DNA from: Akkermansia massiliensis
Lineage (GTDB): Bacteria > Verrucomicrobiota > Verrucomicrobiia > Verrucomicrobiales > Akkermansiaceae
NCBI RefSeq assembly: GCF_023516715.1
Contig: NZ_JAMGSI010000002.1
Coordinates: forward strand, 496,001-560,000
DNA length: 64,000 nucleotides
Direction of reading: 5' to 3'
In this document: positions 1,233-25,947 of the stretch, one piece after another
Layout of the letters: every line of letters begins with the position of its first letter
How positions within the stretch are numbered: the first letter of the stretch is position 1
Translations under genes and position numbers: made by a program
Notes under the pieces: generated by a model
Seen by the model: only the letters and a program-made list of their open reading frames with translations
Databases searched by the model: none
Told to the model about the DNA's origin: nothing

Positions 1233-2891
1233 ATGCTTACATTGCTGAAAATTAGAAACCTGGCCCTCGTGGACCAGCTGCTCTGGGAACCCAGCTCCGG
1301 TTTCATCTGCATCACGGGGGAAACGGGGGCGGGCAAATCCGTCATCATCGGCGCCATACGCCTGGCGCTGGGAGAACGCGCGGACAAAACGCTCATCCGG
1401 TCCGGAGAACAGCAATGCAGCGTGGAGGCCGTGTTCCACCTGCCGGACTCCTCCCCGGTGCACGCCATTCTGAACGAACACGGCGTGCCGCCCTGCGAAG
1501 ACGGCAACCTGATCATCAAGCGCATCATTTCCTCCACGGCCAACCGCCAGTTCCTGAATGACAGCCCGTGCACCCTGAACCTGCTGCGGGAGGCGGGCGC
1601 CTGCCTGGTGGACATGCACGGCCCCAGCGACCACCGCTCCCTGATCTCCCAGGAGAGGCAGCTTTCCCTGCTGGACGCCTTTGGGGAGCACGCCCCCCTG
1701 CTGCACGCCTACGCGGACGCGTGGCGGCAATGGCAGGACGCGCGCCGGGCCTATGACGACCTGGAGCATGCGGAAGCGGCCACCGCGCGGGAAATAGAGC
1801 TGCTGCGCCACCAGGTGGACGAGATAGACGCCGCCGCCTTTACGCCGGAGGAAGTGCTCACGCTGGAAGAACGCTGGCAGCGCGCCCGCAACGGCACCAG
1901 GCTTCAGGAACAGGTTTCCAGAATGCTTGCCATGCTGGAGGAAACGGACGTGCCCGGCCTGGGTTCCCAGTTGAGGGAACTGACCCGGGCGGCGCACGAA
2001 CTGGAACGCATGGACGCCTCCACAGCCGCGTGGCTGGCCCCGCTGGCGGAAGTGAATCTGGAGCTTAAGGAAATTGAAGGACGCCTGGCGGATTATTCCT
2101 CCGAGCTGGATTGTGATCCCCGGGAGCTCTTCCAACTGGAGGAGCGCATCAACCTGCTGGAATCCCTGAAAATGAAATACGGCCCTTCCTTTGAAGACGT
2201 CTGCGCCCGGAGGGAGGAGGCGGCCCACCGCCTGGACCGCATCGAGCACCGCACGGAACGCCTGGAAGAACTGCGGGCCTCCATGGCCGTCCTGCGCAAG
2301 CAGGTGGACGCCGCCGGACAGGCCCTGACCAAAGCGCGGCAGGCATCCGCGCCCAAACTGGCTTCCTCCATCGTCAGGCACTCCCGGGAACTGGGCTTCC
2401 GCCAGGCCGTCTTTGAAGTAGGGCTCTCCCCCCTCCAGGAACCCGGCTCCCAGGGAATGGAAACGGTGGAATTCCTGTTCGGCCCCAATCCGGGCGAACC
2501 CTCCAAGCCTCTCCGGCTGATTGCCTCCAGCGGGGAGCTGGCGCGCATCATGCTGGCGATTAAAAGCGCCCTGGCGCACAAGGACTCCACCCCCCTGCTG
2601 GTATTTGACGAAATAGACGCCAATGTGGGCGGGGAAGTGGCGCGGGCCGTCGGCTTCAAGATGCAGCAGCTCGGGAACAGGCACCAGGTCATCTCCATCA
2701 CGCACTTTCCGCAGGTGGCGGCCCTGGCCTCCCATCACTACCTGGTCCAGAAGGCTTCCGCGGGCAACCGCACCATCTCCTGCCTGCGGGAGGTGAGCCA
2801 TGAAGACCGGATAGACGAGCTGGTCCGCATGCTGGGCGGCGGCGGGGACCACGCCCGCACGCTGGCCCAGGCCCTGCTGCAGCCCTCCTGA
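1233..2891 (+). CDS. recN: DNA repair protein RecN (SMC-like ATPase)
   Basis: 552 residues, normal for RecN, an SMC-like cytoplasmic ATPase that acts in double-strand break repair together with RecA. The N-terminal half has the Walker A motif GETGAGKS at residues 29-36. The middle (about 150-370) is rich in charged heptad-like helices, matching the antiparallel coiled coil. The C-terminal half has the signature/Walker B region with SGELARIMLAIK and LLVFDEIDANVGGE, then the H-loop segment VISITHFPQVAA. Start chosen at 1233 (MLTLLKIRNLALVD), where family members begin; an upstream in-frame ATG at 1209 adds eight residues. It stands alone and is convergent with copA, 30 bp away. Confidence 0.95.
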   Translation: MLTLLKIRNLALVDQLLWEPSSGFICITGETGAGKSVIIGAIRLALGERADKTLIRSGEQQCSVEAVFHLPDSSPVHAILNEHGVPPCEDGNLIIKRIISSTANRQFLNDSPCTLNLLREAGACLVDMHGPSDHRSLISQERQLSLLDAFGEHAPLLHAYADAWRQWQDARRAYDDLEHAEAATAREIELLRHQVDEIDAAAFTPEEVLTLEERWQRARNGTRLQEQVSRMLAMLEETDVPGLGSQLRELTRAAHELERMDASTAAWLAPLAEVNLELKEIEGRLADYSSELDCDPRELFQLEERINLLESLKMKYGPSFEDVCARREEAAHRLDRIEHRTERLEELRASMAVLRKQVDAAGQALTKARQASAPKLASSIVRHSRELGFRQAVFEVGLSPLQEPGSQGMETVEFLFGPNPGEPSKPLRLIASSGELARIMLAIKSALAHKDSTPLLVFDEIDANVGGEVARAVGFKMQQLGNRHQVISITHFPQVAALASHHYLVQKASAGNRTISCLREVSHEDRIDELVRMLGGGGDHARTLAQALLQPS

Positions 2892-2921
2892 ACGGAGGGC
2901 GCCAAAAAGGAAGAGGCCGCC

Positions 2922-5165
2922 TTATTTTTCCAGACGGGGCTTGAAGCCGCGCAGCCGCAGGGAATTGAACACCACGCACAGGGAGCTTAAACTCATGGCC
3001 CCGGCGGCAATCATGGGATTCAGCGTAAGGCCGAAGGCCGGATACAGGCACCCGGCGGCCAGCGGAATGCCGATGATATTGTAAAAGAAGGCCCAGAAGA
3101 GGTTCTGCCTGATGATGTGCAGGGTGGTGCGGCCCAGTTGAAGGGCTTCCGCCACGCCCACGGGATTGCTCTTCATCAGCACGATGTCGGAGGACTCCAT
3201 CGCCAGCTCCGTTCCGGACTTCATGGAGATGCCCACCCGGGCGCAGGCCAGCGCCGGGGCGTCGTTCACGCCGTCCCCCACCATCGCCACCTTGTCCCCG
3301 CGTTCCTCCATCTTCATCACATGGGAGGCCTTCTCATCCGGAAGCACGTCGGAAATCACTTCATCAATATGCAGTTCCCCGGCCATGTGCCGCGCCGTGG
3401 CGGCATTGTCCCCCGTCAGCATGACCACGCGCAGGTTCATCCGCTTCAGATAATCCACCGCCGCCCGGCTGTCCGGTTTCAGGGAATCCGCCACCATGAT
3501 CACTCCCGCAGGACGGTCTCCCCTCCCTACATACAGCGGGGACGCGCCCTGCCGCATGAACTCCCGGAGGCGGCCTTCCTCCTCCTTCCAGGAGATGCCC
3601 TTGTCCTGCATGAAGCCGGGATTGCCCACCGCATAGGGCACGCCGTCCACTACGCCGGAAATGCCGCGGCCCGGCACAACGGACAAATCCGCCACGGCGC
3701 GGATGGGGAGTTCCAGCAGCCTGGCGTGTTCATAAACGGCTTTCCCTACCGGATGTTCCGATCCCTGCTCCAAAGCCGCCGCCATTTCCACCAGTTCATC
3801 CGCATTCATGCCCGGCTCCGGCAGAACGGCCACCACACGGGGCTCCCCTTCAGTCAGGGTGCCCGTCTTGTCAAAAACGACGGTATCCACGCGGCTCAAA
3901 GCCTCCAAAGCTCCGGCGGACTTGCACAGGATGCCCAGCCGCGCGCCCCTGCCCGTCCCTACCATGATGGCGATGGGCGTGGCAAGCCCCAGAACGCAGG
4001 GGCAGGAAATCACCAGCACCGCAATCGCCCTGGCAAGGGCGAAGGAAAATCCCTCCCCGGCAGCCAGCCACGCAACCAACGACACCAGGGCAATCGCAAT
4101 CACCGCAGGGACAAAGAAATAACACACCCGGTCCGCCAGCCGTGCAATCGGAGCCTTGGACTGGCTGGCCTCCTCCACCAGGCGGATCATGCGGGCCAGC
4201 GTGGAGTCCCTGCCCACGCGTTCCGCACGTACCTTGAGATACCCGGCCCGGTTGAACGTGCCGCTGATCACCCGGTCTCCCGCCGTCTTGTCCACCGGCA
4301 TGCTTTCCCCCGTCAGGTCCGATTCATCCAGCGCGGCCTGCCCTTCTTCAATGACGCCGTCCACCGGAATCCTCTGCCCGGTTTTCACCACCACCAGGTC
4401 CCCGGAATGAAGTTCATCCAGCGGGACGGCGCGCTCCGCGCCGTCATGCCAAACCAGGGCCTCCTGGGGAACCAGCTTCACCAGCCCTTTCACGGCGGCG
4501 TTCGTCTTGCGGTAGGAACGGCGTTCAAGATATTTCCCCAGGGAAATCAGGGTGACGATCATGGCCGCGGATTCAAAATACAGTTCCATTCCGTCCACGT
4601 TGGCGCCCTGCCACAGCGCCGCAATCAACAGATACAGCCCGTACAGGAAGGCGGAACCGGAGCCGATGGCGATCAGGGAATCCATATTGGGAGACAGCGC
4701 GGCAAGCTGGCGCACGCCGTTGATTAAATAATGCCGGTTCAGCCACAGAATCGCGGCCGCCAGAATGCACTGCGCCCACAAATTCATCCAGAGCCCCCAG
4801 CCCCCTCCCGGAACGGGCCAGTGCCACATGGGCCCCATGGACAGATACATCAGAGGCGCCAGCAGCAGAACGGACCAAACGAGGCGGGAGCCTCCCGTTT
4901 CCTCCTGCCCCTGGCTTTCCTCCCCATCCGCACCGGAAAACGGTTCCTCCCGCCAGTCCGCCAGGTGGAAGCCGGCTTTCTCCACTACGGACGCAATGCG
5001 CCCCCTGGCGGGCGAATCTGGCTTTTCAAACAGAACGGTCATCCGCCCCGTCAGCAAATTCAGCTCTACGCGCTCCACCCCCTCCAATCCCTCCACGGCG
5101 CGCTCCACCTTGGCAGCACAACCGGCGCAATGCATGCCGGAAACAAGATAGTTCTTTTCTTCCAT
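2922..5165 (-). CDS. copA: Copper-exporting P1B-type ATPase
   Basis: 747 residues with a single N-terminal heavy-metal-associated domain (GMHCAGC, Cys13 and Cys16), then membrane helices, an actuator domain with TGES (residues 285-288), the metal-binding CPC in SCPCVLGLATP (388-390), the phosphorylated Asp432 in DKTGTLTEG, the SEHPVGKA nucleotide-binding motif, and the hinge VGDGVNDAPALA. CPC plus this layout places it in the Cu(I)-exporting P1B-1 group, which pumps copper out of the cytoplasm. The start at 5165 follows a short leader. No copper chaperone or CueR-type regulator sits beside it. In the leader at 5220-5233 there is an imperfect palindrome that resembles the perfect one before the enolase gene. 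Confidence 0.93.
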   Translation of the reverse strand: MEEKNYLVSGMHCAGCAAKVERAVEGLEGVERVELNLLTGRMTVLFEKPDSPARGRIASVVEKAGFHLADWREEPFSGADGEESQGQEETGGSRLVWSVLLLAPLMYLSMGPMWHWPVPGGGWGLWMNLWAQCILAAAILWLNRHYLINGVRQLAALSPNMDSLIAIGSGSAFLYGLYLLIAALWQGANVDGMELYFESAAMIVTLISLGKYLERRSYRKTNAAVKGLVKLVPQEALVWHDGAERAVPLDELHSGDLVVVKTGQRIPVDGVIEEGQAALDESDLTGESMPVDKTAGDRVISGTFNRAGYLKVRAERVGRDSTLARMIRLVEEASQSKAPIARLADRVCYFFVPAVIAIALVSLVAWLAAGEGFSFALARAIAVLVISCPCVLGLATPIAIMVGTGRGARLGILCKSAGALEALSRVDTVVFDKTGTLTEGEPRVVAVLPEPGMNADELVEMAAALEQGSEHPVGKAVYEHARLLELPIRAVADLSVVPGRGISGVVDGVPYAVGNPGFMQDKGISWKEEEGRLREFMRQGASPLYVGRGDRPAGVIMVADSLKPDSRAAVDYLKRMNLRVVMLTGDNAATARHMAGELHIDEVISDVLPDEKASHVMKMEERGDKVAMVGDGVNDAPALACARVGISMKSGTELAMESSDIVLMKSNPVGVAEALQLGRTTLHIIRQNLFWAFFYNIIGIPLAAGCLYPAFGLTLNPMIAAGAMSLSSLCVVFNSLRLRGFKPRLEK

Positions 5166-22488: not shown

Positions 22489-22552
22489 CATTATAAATAT
22501 TTAATACATTATTTATACATTTTCCTTGCGGGGGCTCTCTTTCTGTGGTTCA

Positions 22553-22700
22553 TTGCGTTTCAGCGCAGGTAACGGAAGACGGTGAAAATCCGTCGCGGAC
22601 GCGCCGCTGTAACCGGTAGACGATGGACCGGACACTGACTGCCAGCAGTCGGGAAGTCCCCATCACATGTCGCACCGGAAGCCAGAAGACGACCTGATGC
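22553..22700 (+). ncRNA. Cobalamin riboswitch in the nrdD leader
   Basis: The conserved core is present in order: GGTGAAAATCCGTCGCGG (22581-22598), GCGCCGCTGTAACCGG (22601-22616), CACTGACTGCCAGCAGTCGG (22633-22652), GGAAGT, and the B12 box GCCAGAAGAC with CCTGATGCC after it (22681-22701). These are the hallmarks of the cobalamin (B12) riboswitch. It sits about 165 bases before the nrdD start. The expression platform was not resolved. B12 binding is expected to reduce expression of the operon downstream. Confidence 0.9.
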
Positions 22701-22863
22701 CCCCGTATCCCATCCCGCGGACAGGATGAACATACGCACAGGTCCTCATCGTGCCCCTTGTTAAAAATGCACGCATGCGGCGGCCCCTGCCTATGATTTT
22801 TCCAGGCTTTTGCCCAGGCTCGCGGATGAGCGGTCATCATCCCTTCCAAGCGAGACACCCACC
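22701..22863 (+). promoter_or_regulatory. nrdD leader after the riboswitch aptamer
   Basis: 163 bases with no gene. This must contain the expression platform. I could not decide between a terminator and masking of the start region: no clean stem with a T-run is seen, although a TTTTT run occurs around 22797-22801. Confidence 0.4.
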
Positions 22864-24960
22864 ATGGCAACAAGCATCATCAAGCGTTCCGGAAAAAAGG
22901 AACAATACCAGGGCTACAAAATTGAGGAAGCCGTCAAGAACGCGTTCCACAGCTCCGGCACCGCCTACAACCGTTCCATTTACGAAGAAGTGGAAGCCAA
23001 GCTGAGCCATCAGGACTGCGCGCATGTGGAAGAAATCCAGGACATGATAGAACGCGCCCTGTTCCGCTGCGGATACTTTGACACGGCCAAGACCTTCATC
23101 ACCTACCGCTTCCTGCACAAAATGCAGCGCGAACAGCTCGGGGGCCTCTATTCCGGCAACACGTACGTGGACTGCAAGCAGACGGTGGAGGAATACATCG
23201 GCCAGAGCGACTGGCGCATCGCCGCCAACTCCAACACCACGTATTCCAACGCCGGCCTCATCAATAACACGGCGGGAAAGGTGATTGCCAACTACTGGCT
23301 GGACCAGGTTTATTCCGCACGGGAGGGGGCCGCCCACCGGGAAGGGGACTACCACATTCATGACCTGGACTGCCTGACCGGGTACTGCGCCGGGTGGAGC
23401 CTCCGCAACCTGCTCAACGAAGGATTCAACGGCGTGCGCAGCCGCGTGAACAGCAGGCCGCCGCGCCACTTCCGGGAAGCACTGGGCCAGATGGCCAACT
23501 TTCTGGGCATTCTGCAAAGCGAATGGGCCGGAGCCCAGGCCTTCAGCTCCTTTGACACCTTCCTGGCGCCTTACGCCTTCAAGGACCAGGCGGATTTCAC
23601 GCGCATCAAGAAGGACATCCGCAGCTTCGTCTACAACCTGAACGTGCCCTCCCGCTGGGGGCAGTCCCCCTTCACCAACGTCACGATCGACTGGACCGTG
23701 CCGCGGGACCTGCGGGACCAGGCCCCCTTCAGCGGCGGGGAGCACCTCTTTGAAGGGGTGGAGGACCCGGGCCTGCTCTCCCTGGCGCGGGAACGCGGCG
23801 TGAACAAGCTGACAGAGCTGACCTACAAGCATTTCCAGAAGGAAATGAACCTGATCAACAAGGCCTTTTACGAGGTGCTCACGGAAGGGGACAGCACCGG
23901 GCAGCCCTTCACCTTCCCCATCCCCACCGTCAACATCACGGAAGACTTTGACTGGGAAGGGGAAAACGTGCCGCTCCTGTTTGAAAACGCCGCCAAGATC
24001 GGCTCCTCCTACTTCCAGAACTTCATCGGCAGCCAGTACACCGTGAATGAAAACGGGGAACGCGTGCCGGACGAACGGGCCTACAAGCCGGACGCCGTGC
24101 GCTCCATGTGCTGCCGCCTCCAGCTGGACCTGCGGGAGCTGCTCAAGCGCGGCGGCGGCCTCTTCGGCTCCGCGGAAATGACCGGCTCCATCGGCGTGGT
24201 GACCATCAACCTGGCCCGGCTGGGCTACCTGTTCAAGCAGAACCGGGAAGCACTGTTCGCCCGGCTGGGGGAACTGCTGGACCTGGCCAAATCCTGCCTG
24301 GAAAAGAAAAGAACCTTCGTCCAGGAAATGTACGACCGCGGCCTGTACCCCTACACCAGGCGCTACCTGCCCACCTTCCGCAACCACTTCTCCACCATCG
24401 GGGTCAACGGCATGAACGAACTGCTGCGCAACTTCTCCAACGACTCGATGGACATCACCTCCGAGGAAGGCAGGACCTTTGCGGAGGAAATCCTGGAATT
24501 CATCCGCCTGCGCATGCAGGAGTACCAGGAGGAAACCGGCAACCTGTACAACCTGGAAGCCACCCCTGCGGAAGGCACCACCCACCGCTTTGCCCGGGAG
24601 GACCAGAAGCGCTATCCGGACATCCTCCAGGCCGGGCCCGTGGGGCAGCGTTACTACACGAACAGCTCCCAGCTCCCCGTGGACCACACGAGCGACCTGT
24701 TCCGTGCGCTCCAGCTCCAGGACGAACTCCAGTGCTGCTACACGGGGGGAACCGTCTTCCACATGTACATGAATGAAGCCATCAGCTCCCCGGAAGCCTG
24801 CCGGGACATCGTCCGCAAGGTGCTGACCCGCTTCCGCATGCCGTACCTGACCGTCACCCCGCTCTTCTCCGTCTGCGACAAGCACGGCTACCTGCGCGGG
24901 GAGCACCAGTACTGCCCCTTCTGTGATGAAGAGCTGCTCCACATCCACAGGCATGAATAA
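22864..24960 (+). CDS. nrdD: Anaerobic ribonucleoside-triphosphate reductase, body without glycyl-radical end
   Basis: 698 residues. N-terminal ATP-cone (about 4-95, beginning IIKRSGKKEQYQGYKIEE), then the class III reductase barrel (YIGQSDWRIAANSNTTYSN, HIHDLDCLTGYCAGW, conserved CC in SMCCRLQLD). This enzyme makes deoxyribonucleotides without oxygen. The zinc region near the C-terminus is present (Cys671, Cys684, Cys687 in SVCDKHGYL and YCPFCDEEL), but the chain stops at 698, before the glycyl-radical loop R-V-x-G-Y that normally follows. That loop is found in the next gene at 25010. The start at 22864 matches family N-termini. Preceded by a cobalamin riboswitch and a NrdR-box-like site; first gene of a four-gene run. 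Confidence 0.93.
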   Translation: MATSIIKRSGKKEQYQGYKIEEAVKNAFHSSGTAYNRSIYEEVEAKLSHQDCAHVEEIQDMIERALFRCGYFDTAKTFITYRFLHKMQREQLGGLYSGNTYVDCKQTVEEYIGQSDWRIAANSNTTYSNAGLINNTAGKVIANYWLDQVYSAREGAAHREGDYHIHDLDCLTGYCAGWSLRNLLNEGFNGVRSRVNSRPPRHFREALGQMANFLGILQSEWAGAQAFSSFDTFLAPYAFKDQADFTRIKKDIRSFVYNLNVPSRWGQSPFTNVTIDWTVPRDLRDQAPFSGGEHLFEGVEDPGLLSLARERGVNKLTELTYKHFQKEMNLINKAFYEVLTEGDSTGQPFTFPIPTVNITEDFDWEGENVPLLFENAAKIGSSYFQNFIGSQYTVNENGERVPDERAYKPDAVRSMCCRLQLDLRELLKRGGGLFGSAEMTGSIGVVTINLARLGYLFKQNREALFARLGELLDLAKSCLEKKRTFVQEMYDRGLYPYTRRYLPTFRNHFSTIGVNGMNELLRNFSNDSMDITSEEGRTFAEEILEFIRLRMQEYQEETGNLYNLEATPAEGTTHRFAREDQKRYPDILQAGPVGQRYYTNSSQLPVDHTSDLFRALQLQDELQCCYTGGTVFHMYMNEAISSPEACRDIVRKVLTRFRMPYLTVTPLFSVCDKHGYLRGEHQYCPFCDEELLHIHRHE

Positions 24961-25009
24961 CCCTTTTCAACCAGCCGCCTCGTTTCAAAACCCAGCCATC
25001 AATACGACA

Positions 25010-25204
25010 ATGACCAAACAGGAAATATTAAGCAAATACGCACAGGACCGTACCCGCTGCACCGTTTACACGCGCGTCATGGGCTATCACCGCCCTGTGG
25101 AAACCTTTAACGCCGGCAAACAGGGCGAATTCCACGACCGCGTCCACTTCGTGGAACCGGACCGTCCCTGCTCCTGCTCCGCCCAAACGGAACAGCCGCG
25201 GTAA
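25010..25204 (+). CDS. Stand-alone glycyl-radical domain of class III ribonucleotide reductase
   Basis: 64 residues with its own ATG at 25010, 49 bp after the nrdD stop and in a different frame. Residues 14-47 match the very C-terminus of one-chain NrdD: TVYTRVMGYHRPVETFNAGKQ and so on, with Gly25 as the expected radical site in RVMGY, then RPV, N-x-GK and EF. Cys17 may complete the zinc site of the body. Residues 1-13 are extra and look helical. A charged Cys-containing tail (PDRPCSCS) ends the protein. It lies between the body and the activase nrdG, 26 bp before the latter, so all three can assemble. Small separate NrdD proteins of this kind are annotated in some other genomes as I recall, so the split is probably natural and not an error. 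Confidence 0.85.
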   Translation: MTKQEILSKYAQDRTRCTVYTRVMGYHRPVETFNAGKQGEFHDRVHFVEPDRPCSCSAQTEQPR

Positions 25205-25230: not shown

Positions 25231-25947
25231 ATGGGAACGGGCCGGGGCATAGCGGACATCACGCCGCTCACCTTGCTGGATTTTCCAAACAAGGTGGCCT
25301 GCATCTTCTGGCTGAGAGGCTGTAACTTGTTTTGTCAGTACTGTTACAACGTCTCCCTGGTCAGAGGAACGGGCTCTCCTGCCGGAGACCGGACGGACTA
25401 CCTTGATTTCCTCAGAGATCGGGTGGGATTTCTGGACGGGGTAGTCCTGTCCGGCGGCGAGTGCACGCTGTGTCCCGACCTTATCCCCATCTGCCGCGAG
25501 ATACGGCAGCTAGGCTTCGCGATTAAAATAGACACCAACGGCACGAGGCCCGGCGTGGTGAAAGCGCTGGTGGAAGAGGGGCTTTGCGACTACATCGCCC
25601 TGGACTACAAGGCGCCCCCCGAACAATACGGCGCCGTCACCGGCAGGCCCGACCTTTTCCCCTCCTTTTCCGCAACTCTGGACTACCTGATCGCCTCCCA
25701 AACCGCCTTTGAAGTCAGAACCACCGTCCATCCCGATTTATTGACGGAAGATCACGTCAACAACATCATACGCGACTTGACAAAGCGCGGGTATGGGGGC
25801 AACTACTTCGTGCAAAATTTCTACCTGACCAAACAAACACTCAACTCTCTCCCCGCGCCGAGCCGGTTGTTTGACCGGACCAGGCTGGAGCCGGCCTCCA
25901 TCCCCGTCCACTTCCGCAACTTCGAGTTCGCTCCGGGCAAAGTCTGA
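25231..25947 (+). CDS. nrdG: Anaerobic ribonucleotide reductase activating protein (radical SAM)
   Basis: 238 residues. Radical SAM motif RGCNLFCQYCYN with Cys31, Cys35 and Cys38 for the 4Fe-4S cluster, and the SAM-binding LSGGECTL. It makes the glycyl radical on the reductase, here on the separate 64-residue protein. The chain is longer than Escherichia coli NrdG (about 154) and resembles the longer NrdG/PflA-type activases of strict anaerobes. Start at 25231; it overlaps nothing. The AspT-like gene begins 11 bp after its stop, suggesting cotranscription. Confidence 0.9.
   Translation: MGTGRGIADITPLTLLDFPNKVACIFWLRGCNLFCQYCYNVSLVRGTGSPAGDRTDYLDFLRDRVGFLDGVVLSGGECTLCPDLIPICREIRQLGFAIKIDTNGTRPGVVKALVEEGLCDYIALDYKAPPEQYGAVTGRPDLFPSFSATLDYLIASQTAFEVRTTVHPDLLTEDHVNNIIRDLTKRGYGGNYFVQNFYLTKQTLNSLPAPSRLFDRTRLEPASIPVHFRNFEFAPGKV

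Follow-up and report, generated by a model that had tools for sequence, protein, structure and literature searches.

In the Akkermansia massiliensis DNA analysed here, a stretch of 64,000 nucleotides that we call the window, the class III ribonucleotide reductase (RNR) is probably an enzyme of two polypeptides, with the glycyl-radical loop alone on a separately translated chain of ~7 kDa; we put the probability of this reading at about 85%. Class III enzymes are usually built from one chain, and in glycyl-radical enzymes oxygen cuts at the radical, normally at the cost of the entire ~80 kDa chain. The perishable part of the enzyme that makes DNA precursors in anaerobes appears here to have been moved to a ~7 kDa chain, at least twice and perhaps three times. 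That this two-chain class III reductase is natural is well supported, as its two parts lie in separate frames under selection, their pairing with nrdG is conserved, and each is homologous to the matching part of one-chain NrdD.

The divided nrdD locus of Akkermansia

The genes of the locus lie on the forward strand. The large one, nrdD (22864..24960, with its ATG at 22864 and its stop at 24960), encodes a body of 698 aa with an ATP-cone, the reductase barrel, the finger loop and a complete Zn site, and without the glycyl-radical loop (Pfam, NCBIfam). In Pfam, the ATP-cone covers residues 4–86 and the NRDD profile is matched from position 2 to 536 of 562 with 531 bits, so that its last ~26 positions are absent from the body. 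The best NCBIfam matches are anaerobic reductases, B12-dependent models matching the ATP-cone region only, and the five solved sequences that match the body are all class III RNRs. Within SMCCRLQLDLRELLKRGGGLFGSAE, the body has an MCCR motif (residues 415–418; 24106..24117, forward strand), which precedes the finger loop GLFGSAEMTGS with its Phe. A predicted Zn site, CDKHGYLRGEHQYCPFC, is found at the C-terminal end (24874..24924, forward strand), and the body ends 11 residues after CPFC.

A gap of 49 nt (24961..25009) separates the body stop from the ATG of a second gene (25010..25204, forward strand; +1 frame relative to the body), which encodes the small glycyl-radical subunit of 64 aa. It matches NRDD positions 532–562 (33.6 bits, E 2.4e-8, cut-off 26.2), and its radical site is presumed to be Gly25 (codon 25082–25084), within CTVYTRVMGYHRP (RVMGYHRP), followed by FNAGKQGEF. 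After a further 26 nt begins nrdG (25231..25947, forward strand), which encodes a radical-SAM activase of the NrdG2 family with 238 aa (TIGR02495, 181 bits, cut-off 131; Radical_SAM). These observations bear out the preliminary description, which had placed the loop in a small ORF in another frame between a shortened body and nrdG. NrdD matches in the whole genome comprise this one body and this one small ORF, nothing more; as the body itself lacks a radical loop, it should depend strictly on the small protein. Among solved structures, the sole match of the small protein is a glycosidase, which looks like chance (E 0.014).

Upstream of nrdD lies a cobalamin riboswitch aptamer (22538..22711, forward strand; Rfam RF00174, 76.5 bits, gathering threshold 31.5), which covers the whole model (1–189). 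The riboswitch thus precedes a B12-independent class III RNR, and the same genome encodes a class II, B12-dependent RNR of 1208 aa. When B12 is present, the class III operon would likely be shut off.

The separation of the two genes is constant throughout the genus. NrdD is present in 74 of 76 Akkermansia genomes (no match in G061 and G071), and we compared 75 loci from 73 of them, including the window and leaving out the partial G042. In all 75, a stop closes the body and the loop has an ORF of its own, whose frame relative to the body stop is distributed 27/26/22 over the three classes; this spread excludes that the loci share a frameshift or read-through. Among 12 close loci, indels change the length of the gap between 49 and 55 nt, while the small ORF is constant at 195 nt and has a conserved start. 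The small ORF is under purifying selection: pooled over pairs of these 12 loci, pN/pS is 0.105 for the small ORF and 0.000 for its first 16 codons, compared with 0.053 for the body; the DNA of the small gene read in a wrong frame gives 2.06.

The preliminary description had preferred a natural split to a sequencing error and had named a related strain with one continuous frame as the observation that would speak against it; such a frame occurs in 0 of the 75 Akkermansia loci, which, along with the purifying selection, strongly supports the natural split. An indel introduced into a one-chain gene by sequencing or assembly would explain why the frame changes at the break and would restore the usual class III form, but its probability is close to nil given that every locus of the genus is split, including those in single-contig genomes, with varied gap lengths and frames. 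It is also very improbable that a programmed frameshift or stop read-through yields one fused protein. The small frame does continue without a stop 5' of its ATG in some loci, the window among them, but the three relative frames are almost equal in number, the first in-frame ATG can lie up to 38 nt before or up to 141 nt after the stop of the body, the gap carries indels and in some loci several in-frame stops, and small-gene copies occur without a nearby body. The 75 split loci, the spread of frames and pN/pS rule out sequencing error, recoding and a broken pseudogene.

Split and one-chain forms across phyla

Within the family, 20 of 145 genomes match, all of them Akkermansia (0 of 15 other genera sampled), and two genomes from other genera of the family (G103, G088) have a very distant one-chain NrdD (L288, L289). 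In the order, the small protein is found in 44 of 288 genomes and 2 of 50 genera, that is, in one genus beyond Akkermansia; of 387 genomes sampled across the phylum, 236 have an NrdD of some kind, and very many of the matches listed are one-chain. A scan of genome contigs returned at least 585 relatives, the best 80 of which were kept. The loci L199–L259 (61 loci, two from Akkermansia) are split in all 59 cases that could be typed, L226 being masked and L230 too short, which again argues against an indel; three of them (L199, L233, L243) were long at first reading, but have loop and body in different frames.

Split loci of the window's kind, in which the break falls after CPxC (type A), are found in Campylobacterota, Bacteroidota, Pseudomonadota, Omnitrophota and PVC bacteria. 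Of 140 Campylobacterota genomes sampled, 55 encode the small protein, in ORFs of 48–92 aa with the exception of one of 746 aa. Plasmids contribute 28 matching records; five of the eight examined are split and two one-chain, the body of H10 not being resolved. Six named genomes that were searched whole have one NrdD body each. An origin of the split inside Akkermansia is ruled out by the split relatives in another genus of the order and elsewhere. The comparison across genus and phylum that the preliminary description had proposed thus found the split kept in 75 of 75 genus loci and also common to other phyla; it marks a cross-phylum NrdD clade, which that description had not foreseen, and is not an oddity of Akkermansia.

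We distinguish two further types. In type B, found in other genomes of the phylum (L267, L272, L275, L277–L282, L292–L294; a 13th body, L295, runs off its contig, with the small gene unseen), the break lies within the zinc CxxC, with bodies that end like HGYIPGEHxECPLE and small proteins that start like M[S/A]KCGxKTEVYSRVCGYFRP. It may therefore be the small chain that supplies the fourth zinc ligand, in which case the zinc would be shared between the chains. In type C, which comprises L283–L286 of the YMGCR lineage (with identical bodies in L283 and L284), the stop of the body follows its zinc site, and KFERIRRITGYLVGT occurs in a small ORF before an nrdG-like ORF. These bodies have a Cys-containing tail where the radical domain would be.

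In a quick tree of 123 bodies, from which the one-chain L288–L290 were omitted for their low scores, types A, B and C are each set apart by a branch with SH-aLRT 100. A and B are sister groups (95), and C falls among one-chain enzymes; this placement points to at least two fissions, possibly three, at nearly the same joint. A and B may go back to a single fission whose boundary shifted or to two separate ones, a point on which long branches that meet call for caution. Nested in type A are one-chain members from an Acidiphilium plasmid (L387), an Actinomyces oris plasmid (L388, on a long branch) and a Campylobacterota genome (L394), in which body and radical loop are one protein, joined by short linkers. 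Since such members exist in nature, the split is not required for function.

A previously studied enzyme belongs to the split forms as well. On plasmid pHG1 of Cupriavidus necator H16 (L384), the body (1262–3292) is followed by a 66-codon small gene with the loop (3435–3635). The body has a computed mass of 76.2 kDa, and its G650 lies in CPTHGYLAGEH, which is the zinc site and not the radical loop. Siedow et al. are said to have assigned the radical to G650 of the 76.2-kDa NrdD in 1999, and the separate small gene may explain why this residue was once taken for the radical site. The NrdG of C. necator was reportedly 30.9 kDa; an upstream start does not account for this mass, as the longest ATG form has 27.1 kDa. 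In H16, B12 makes good the loss of nrdDG, as stated in the accessible part of PMC2864759. The NrdDG of C. metallidurans is listed as Rmet_5137 and Rmet_5139, and our guess would be that Rmet_5138 is the small gene.

Predicted docking, possible exchange and stand-alone copies

For a view of how the parts may fit together, the type-A locus L200 was modelled with AF2 as a single chain, with stops read as Gly and an alignment of 45 rows. This read-through model reached a pLDDT of 79 and a pTM of 0.76; pLDDT is below 50 in the linker (703–720), ~72–88 in residues 721–770 and again below 50 in the last ten. In VIA-align, class III RNRs fill its first 21 PDB rows (Z 26–32), and P. copri NrdD (8p2s_B) superimposes with Z 32.2 and rmsd 2.8 over 555 residues. 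Model residues 78–773 align to residues 85–735 of this chain, so that the match runs through the small chain, whereas P. copri chains of the dATP form end at model residue 664–665, and the accessible part of PMC11226230 states that the radical domain was not visible to its authors in this form. Foldseek likewise lists class III enzymes first, with TM-scores of 0.49–0.60 by query length and larger rmsd. The placement of the small chain is based on the end points of the aligned ranges, and the model suggests that the small part sits in the barrel of the body; because a single-chain model partly imposes this proximity, we take the docking as support, not proof.

In the mechanism that we propose, the large chain would contribute the ATP-cone, barrel, finger loop and zinc ribbon, and the small chain the glycyl-radical loop only. 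NrdG would install the small chain's radical at Gly25, probably while this chain is on or near the body, and the loop would enter the barrel, hand the radical to the finger-loop cysteine region and take it back. A small chain cut by oxygen would be replaced by a fresh one, and phages or prophages may add small chains for the host body. The radical on Gly25, the heteromeric activity, the exchange of oxygen-cut chains and thus repair, and the use by phages are what we infer; exchange is plausible because stand-alone copies of the small gene occur in viral DNA. How the loop moves between activase and barrel is a long-standing question that now becomes testable, as a loop that is a separate protein can be added, labelled, swapped or withheld.

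These stand-alone copies were collected by scanning IMG/VR with query A1, from which we took 80 of 129 relatives, and with a prophage-copy query, which added three to give 83 loci. A loop ORF is readable in 80 of them (68 distinct loop stretches), with no loop in L352, L366 and L382. In 79 of these 80 the small gene stands without an NrdD body in the DNA examined, which extends at least 3 kb to both sides in 45 and less in the remainder; L315 is the sole readable locus with body, small gene and nrdG. Fifty of the 83 records were searched whole: one (G720, the record of L315) has a body, 48 have the small part only (including G722, where a second, weak match was seen), and the profile missed G726, though its loop was read directly. 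The records were mostly found by radical-loop patterns, some may be host DNA, and none is rated at least 90% complete, so that a body may lie in the missing DNA.

A comparison of 20 neighbours from 17 viral loci with PHROGs identified terminases (L316, L318, L350), a portal (L380), a tape measure (L362), tail proteins (L329, L357, L377), a lysis amidase (L306), DNA polymerases (L338, L340), a helicase (L327), an SbcC-like protein (L370) and an HNH endonuclease (L371), and gave no clear phage assignment for the neighbours at L300, L303, L314 and L344. Among 20 genes directly after the small gene, Pfam matches five to cell-wall enzymes (L314, L322, L325, L326, L330), one to a terminase small subunit (L308) and five to assorted families (L300, L303, L309, L332 and L345, the first two of which could be bacterial); nine have no match. 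Directly 5' of cell-wall lysis enzymes of varied families, the small gene is found at L306, L314, L322, L325, L326, L330, L398 and L399.

Copies also occur in bacterial genomes. One in an Akkermansia genome (G022) is a prophage copy directly downstream of portal and terminase genes, and copies in the Campylobacterota genome G879 and in C. concisus (G762) adjoin an endolysin; the neighbours of the two extra copies in G843 match families without known function or nothing. In the PVC-phylum genome G611, five extra copies lie on other contigs. One of them, L265 (4020–4268), sits between genes for a Sak4-like AAA protein and for an SSB-like protein; judging by ORF sizes, L264, L268 and L269 probably share this phage-replication-like module. 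At L271 the copy lies between bacterial-type genes, and at L266, L270, L274 and L276 the neighbours have no phage assignment, so that carriage by phages is documented for some of the extra copies, not for all.

Each of the seven small proteins tested matches phrog_4132 (E 5.9e-6 or better), a PHROGs family without a function so far, within positions 110–161 of its 179-position profile. In an annotated phage collection, the small protein of the window found no match and a phage copy one weak match; this collection being nearly empty of relatives, the viral claim rests on the IMG/VR records and the prophages.

In bacteria with a split class III RNR, a phage or prophage small subunit, of ~45–75 aa in most cases, may plug into the host NrdD body and either keep host dNTP synthesis running or free it from host control, with phrog_4132 as its family, a reading to which we give even odds. 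If it is true, a phage supplies only the perishable radical part of an enzyme to a host body, and phrog_4132 gains a suggested function. The viral proteins might instead inhibit or hijack the host RNR, as a decoy or a variant that escapes dATP control, without being working radical chains. Their position apart from any body in the DNA examined would fit this, as would the dATP inhibition of P. copri NrdD, which, according to the accessible part of PMC11226230, works through the mobility of the radical domain; still, we consider it unlikely, since both the radical loop and an N-x-G-K-like motif persist in the copies read, though scan and reading pattern had selected for both.

The copies also bear on whether exchange takes place at all. 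A neutral fission, which left a permanent two-chain complex with no role in exchange or repair, is a serious possibility that falls somewhat short of even odds. Body and small gene are adjacent and presumably co-transcribed, and the one-chain forms nested in the split clade indicate that a single chain also works; against it stand the repeated fissions at nearly one joint and the stand-alone copies in viral and prophage DNA, which suggest action in trans.

Comparison with known systems

The preliminary description had likened the small protein to GrcA/YfiD, the spare part of pyruvate formate-lyase (PFL). The analogy is apt in so far as both are small stand-alone proteins with a glycyl-radical loop that dock into a large barrel enzyme, here presumably so. 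It does not extend to a spare beside an intact enzyme: according to the accessible part of PMC8683613, YfiD repairs PFL that was cut by oxygen and PFL retains its own radical loop, whereas the NrdD body of the window type never has one and no second NrdD is present. Homology of the small protein to the PFL C-terminus was not detected, as Pfam at E up to 1 gives NRDD only, and no gene in the T4 region that we inspected is labelled as a GrcA relative.

Other reductases in pieces differ in kind. Phage nrdD is in pieces in six genomes, e.g. in Aeromonas phage phiAS4, and phage nrdA occurs in two functional pieces; as far as the accessible part of PMC3653736 describes them, the split nrdD genes go back to introns, homing endonucleases or recent breakage, in contrast to the conserved radical subunit here. 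NrdJa/NrdJb resembles our system as a two-chain RNR with its C-terminal part apart, but in the portions of PMC9669993 and PMC4520616 at hand, it is a class II enzyme without a glycyl radical and with another split point and other domains; in NCBIfam, the window body does not classify as a B12-dependent class II catalytic chain. In the open-licence literature searched, we found no paper that describes the class III radical protein as a conserved subunit in its own right. The small gene is nevertheless already annotated: RefSeq names it nrdD, 'anaerobic ribonucleoside-triphosphate reductase', in Sulfuricurvum, C. necator and Thiothrix, and 'hypothetical' in Paracoccus.

The closest relatives are thus the class III enzymes themselves. 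The accessible part of PMC4493059 defines the NrdDh4 group by MCCR (for SCCR) and a Phe at the finger-loop position, and its description of the group there makes no mention of a separate radical protein; the window body shares both features and was matched to the group by this description, not by NrdDh4 profiles. The same source gives the zinc motif of T. maritima NrdD as CxxxHx6CxxC. Of the class III traits, the window system has the barrel fold, the R-V-x-G-Y loop and the NrdG activase, and lacks a radical loop on the polypeptide of the barrel, the two being separate in all loci of the genus. Compared with the one-chain NrdD of T4, T. maritima, P. copri and S. thermophilus, it has the same ATP-cone (which not all of them possess), barrel, zinc ribbon, loop motif and activase, and differs in carrying the radical loop on a separate chain of ~50–75 aa.
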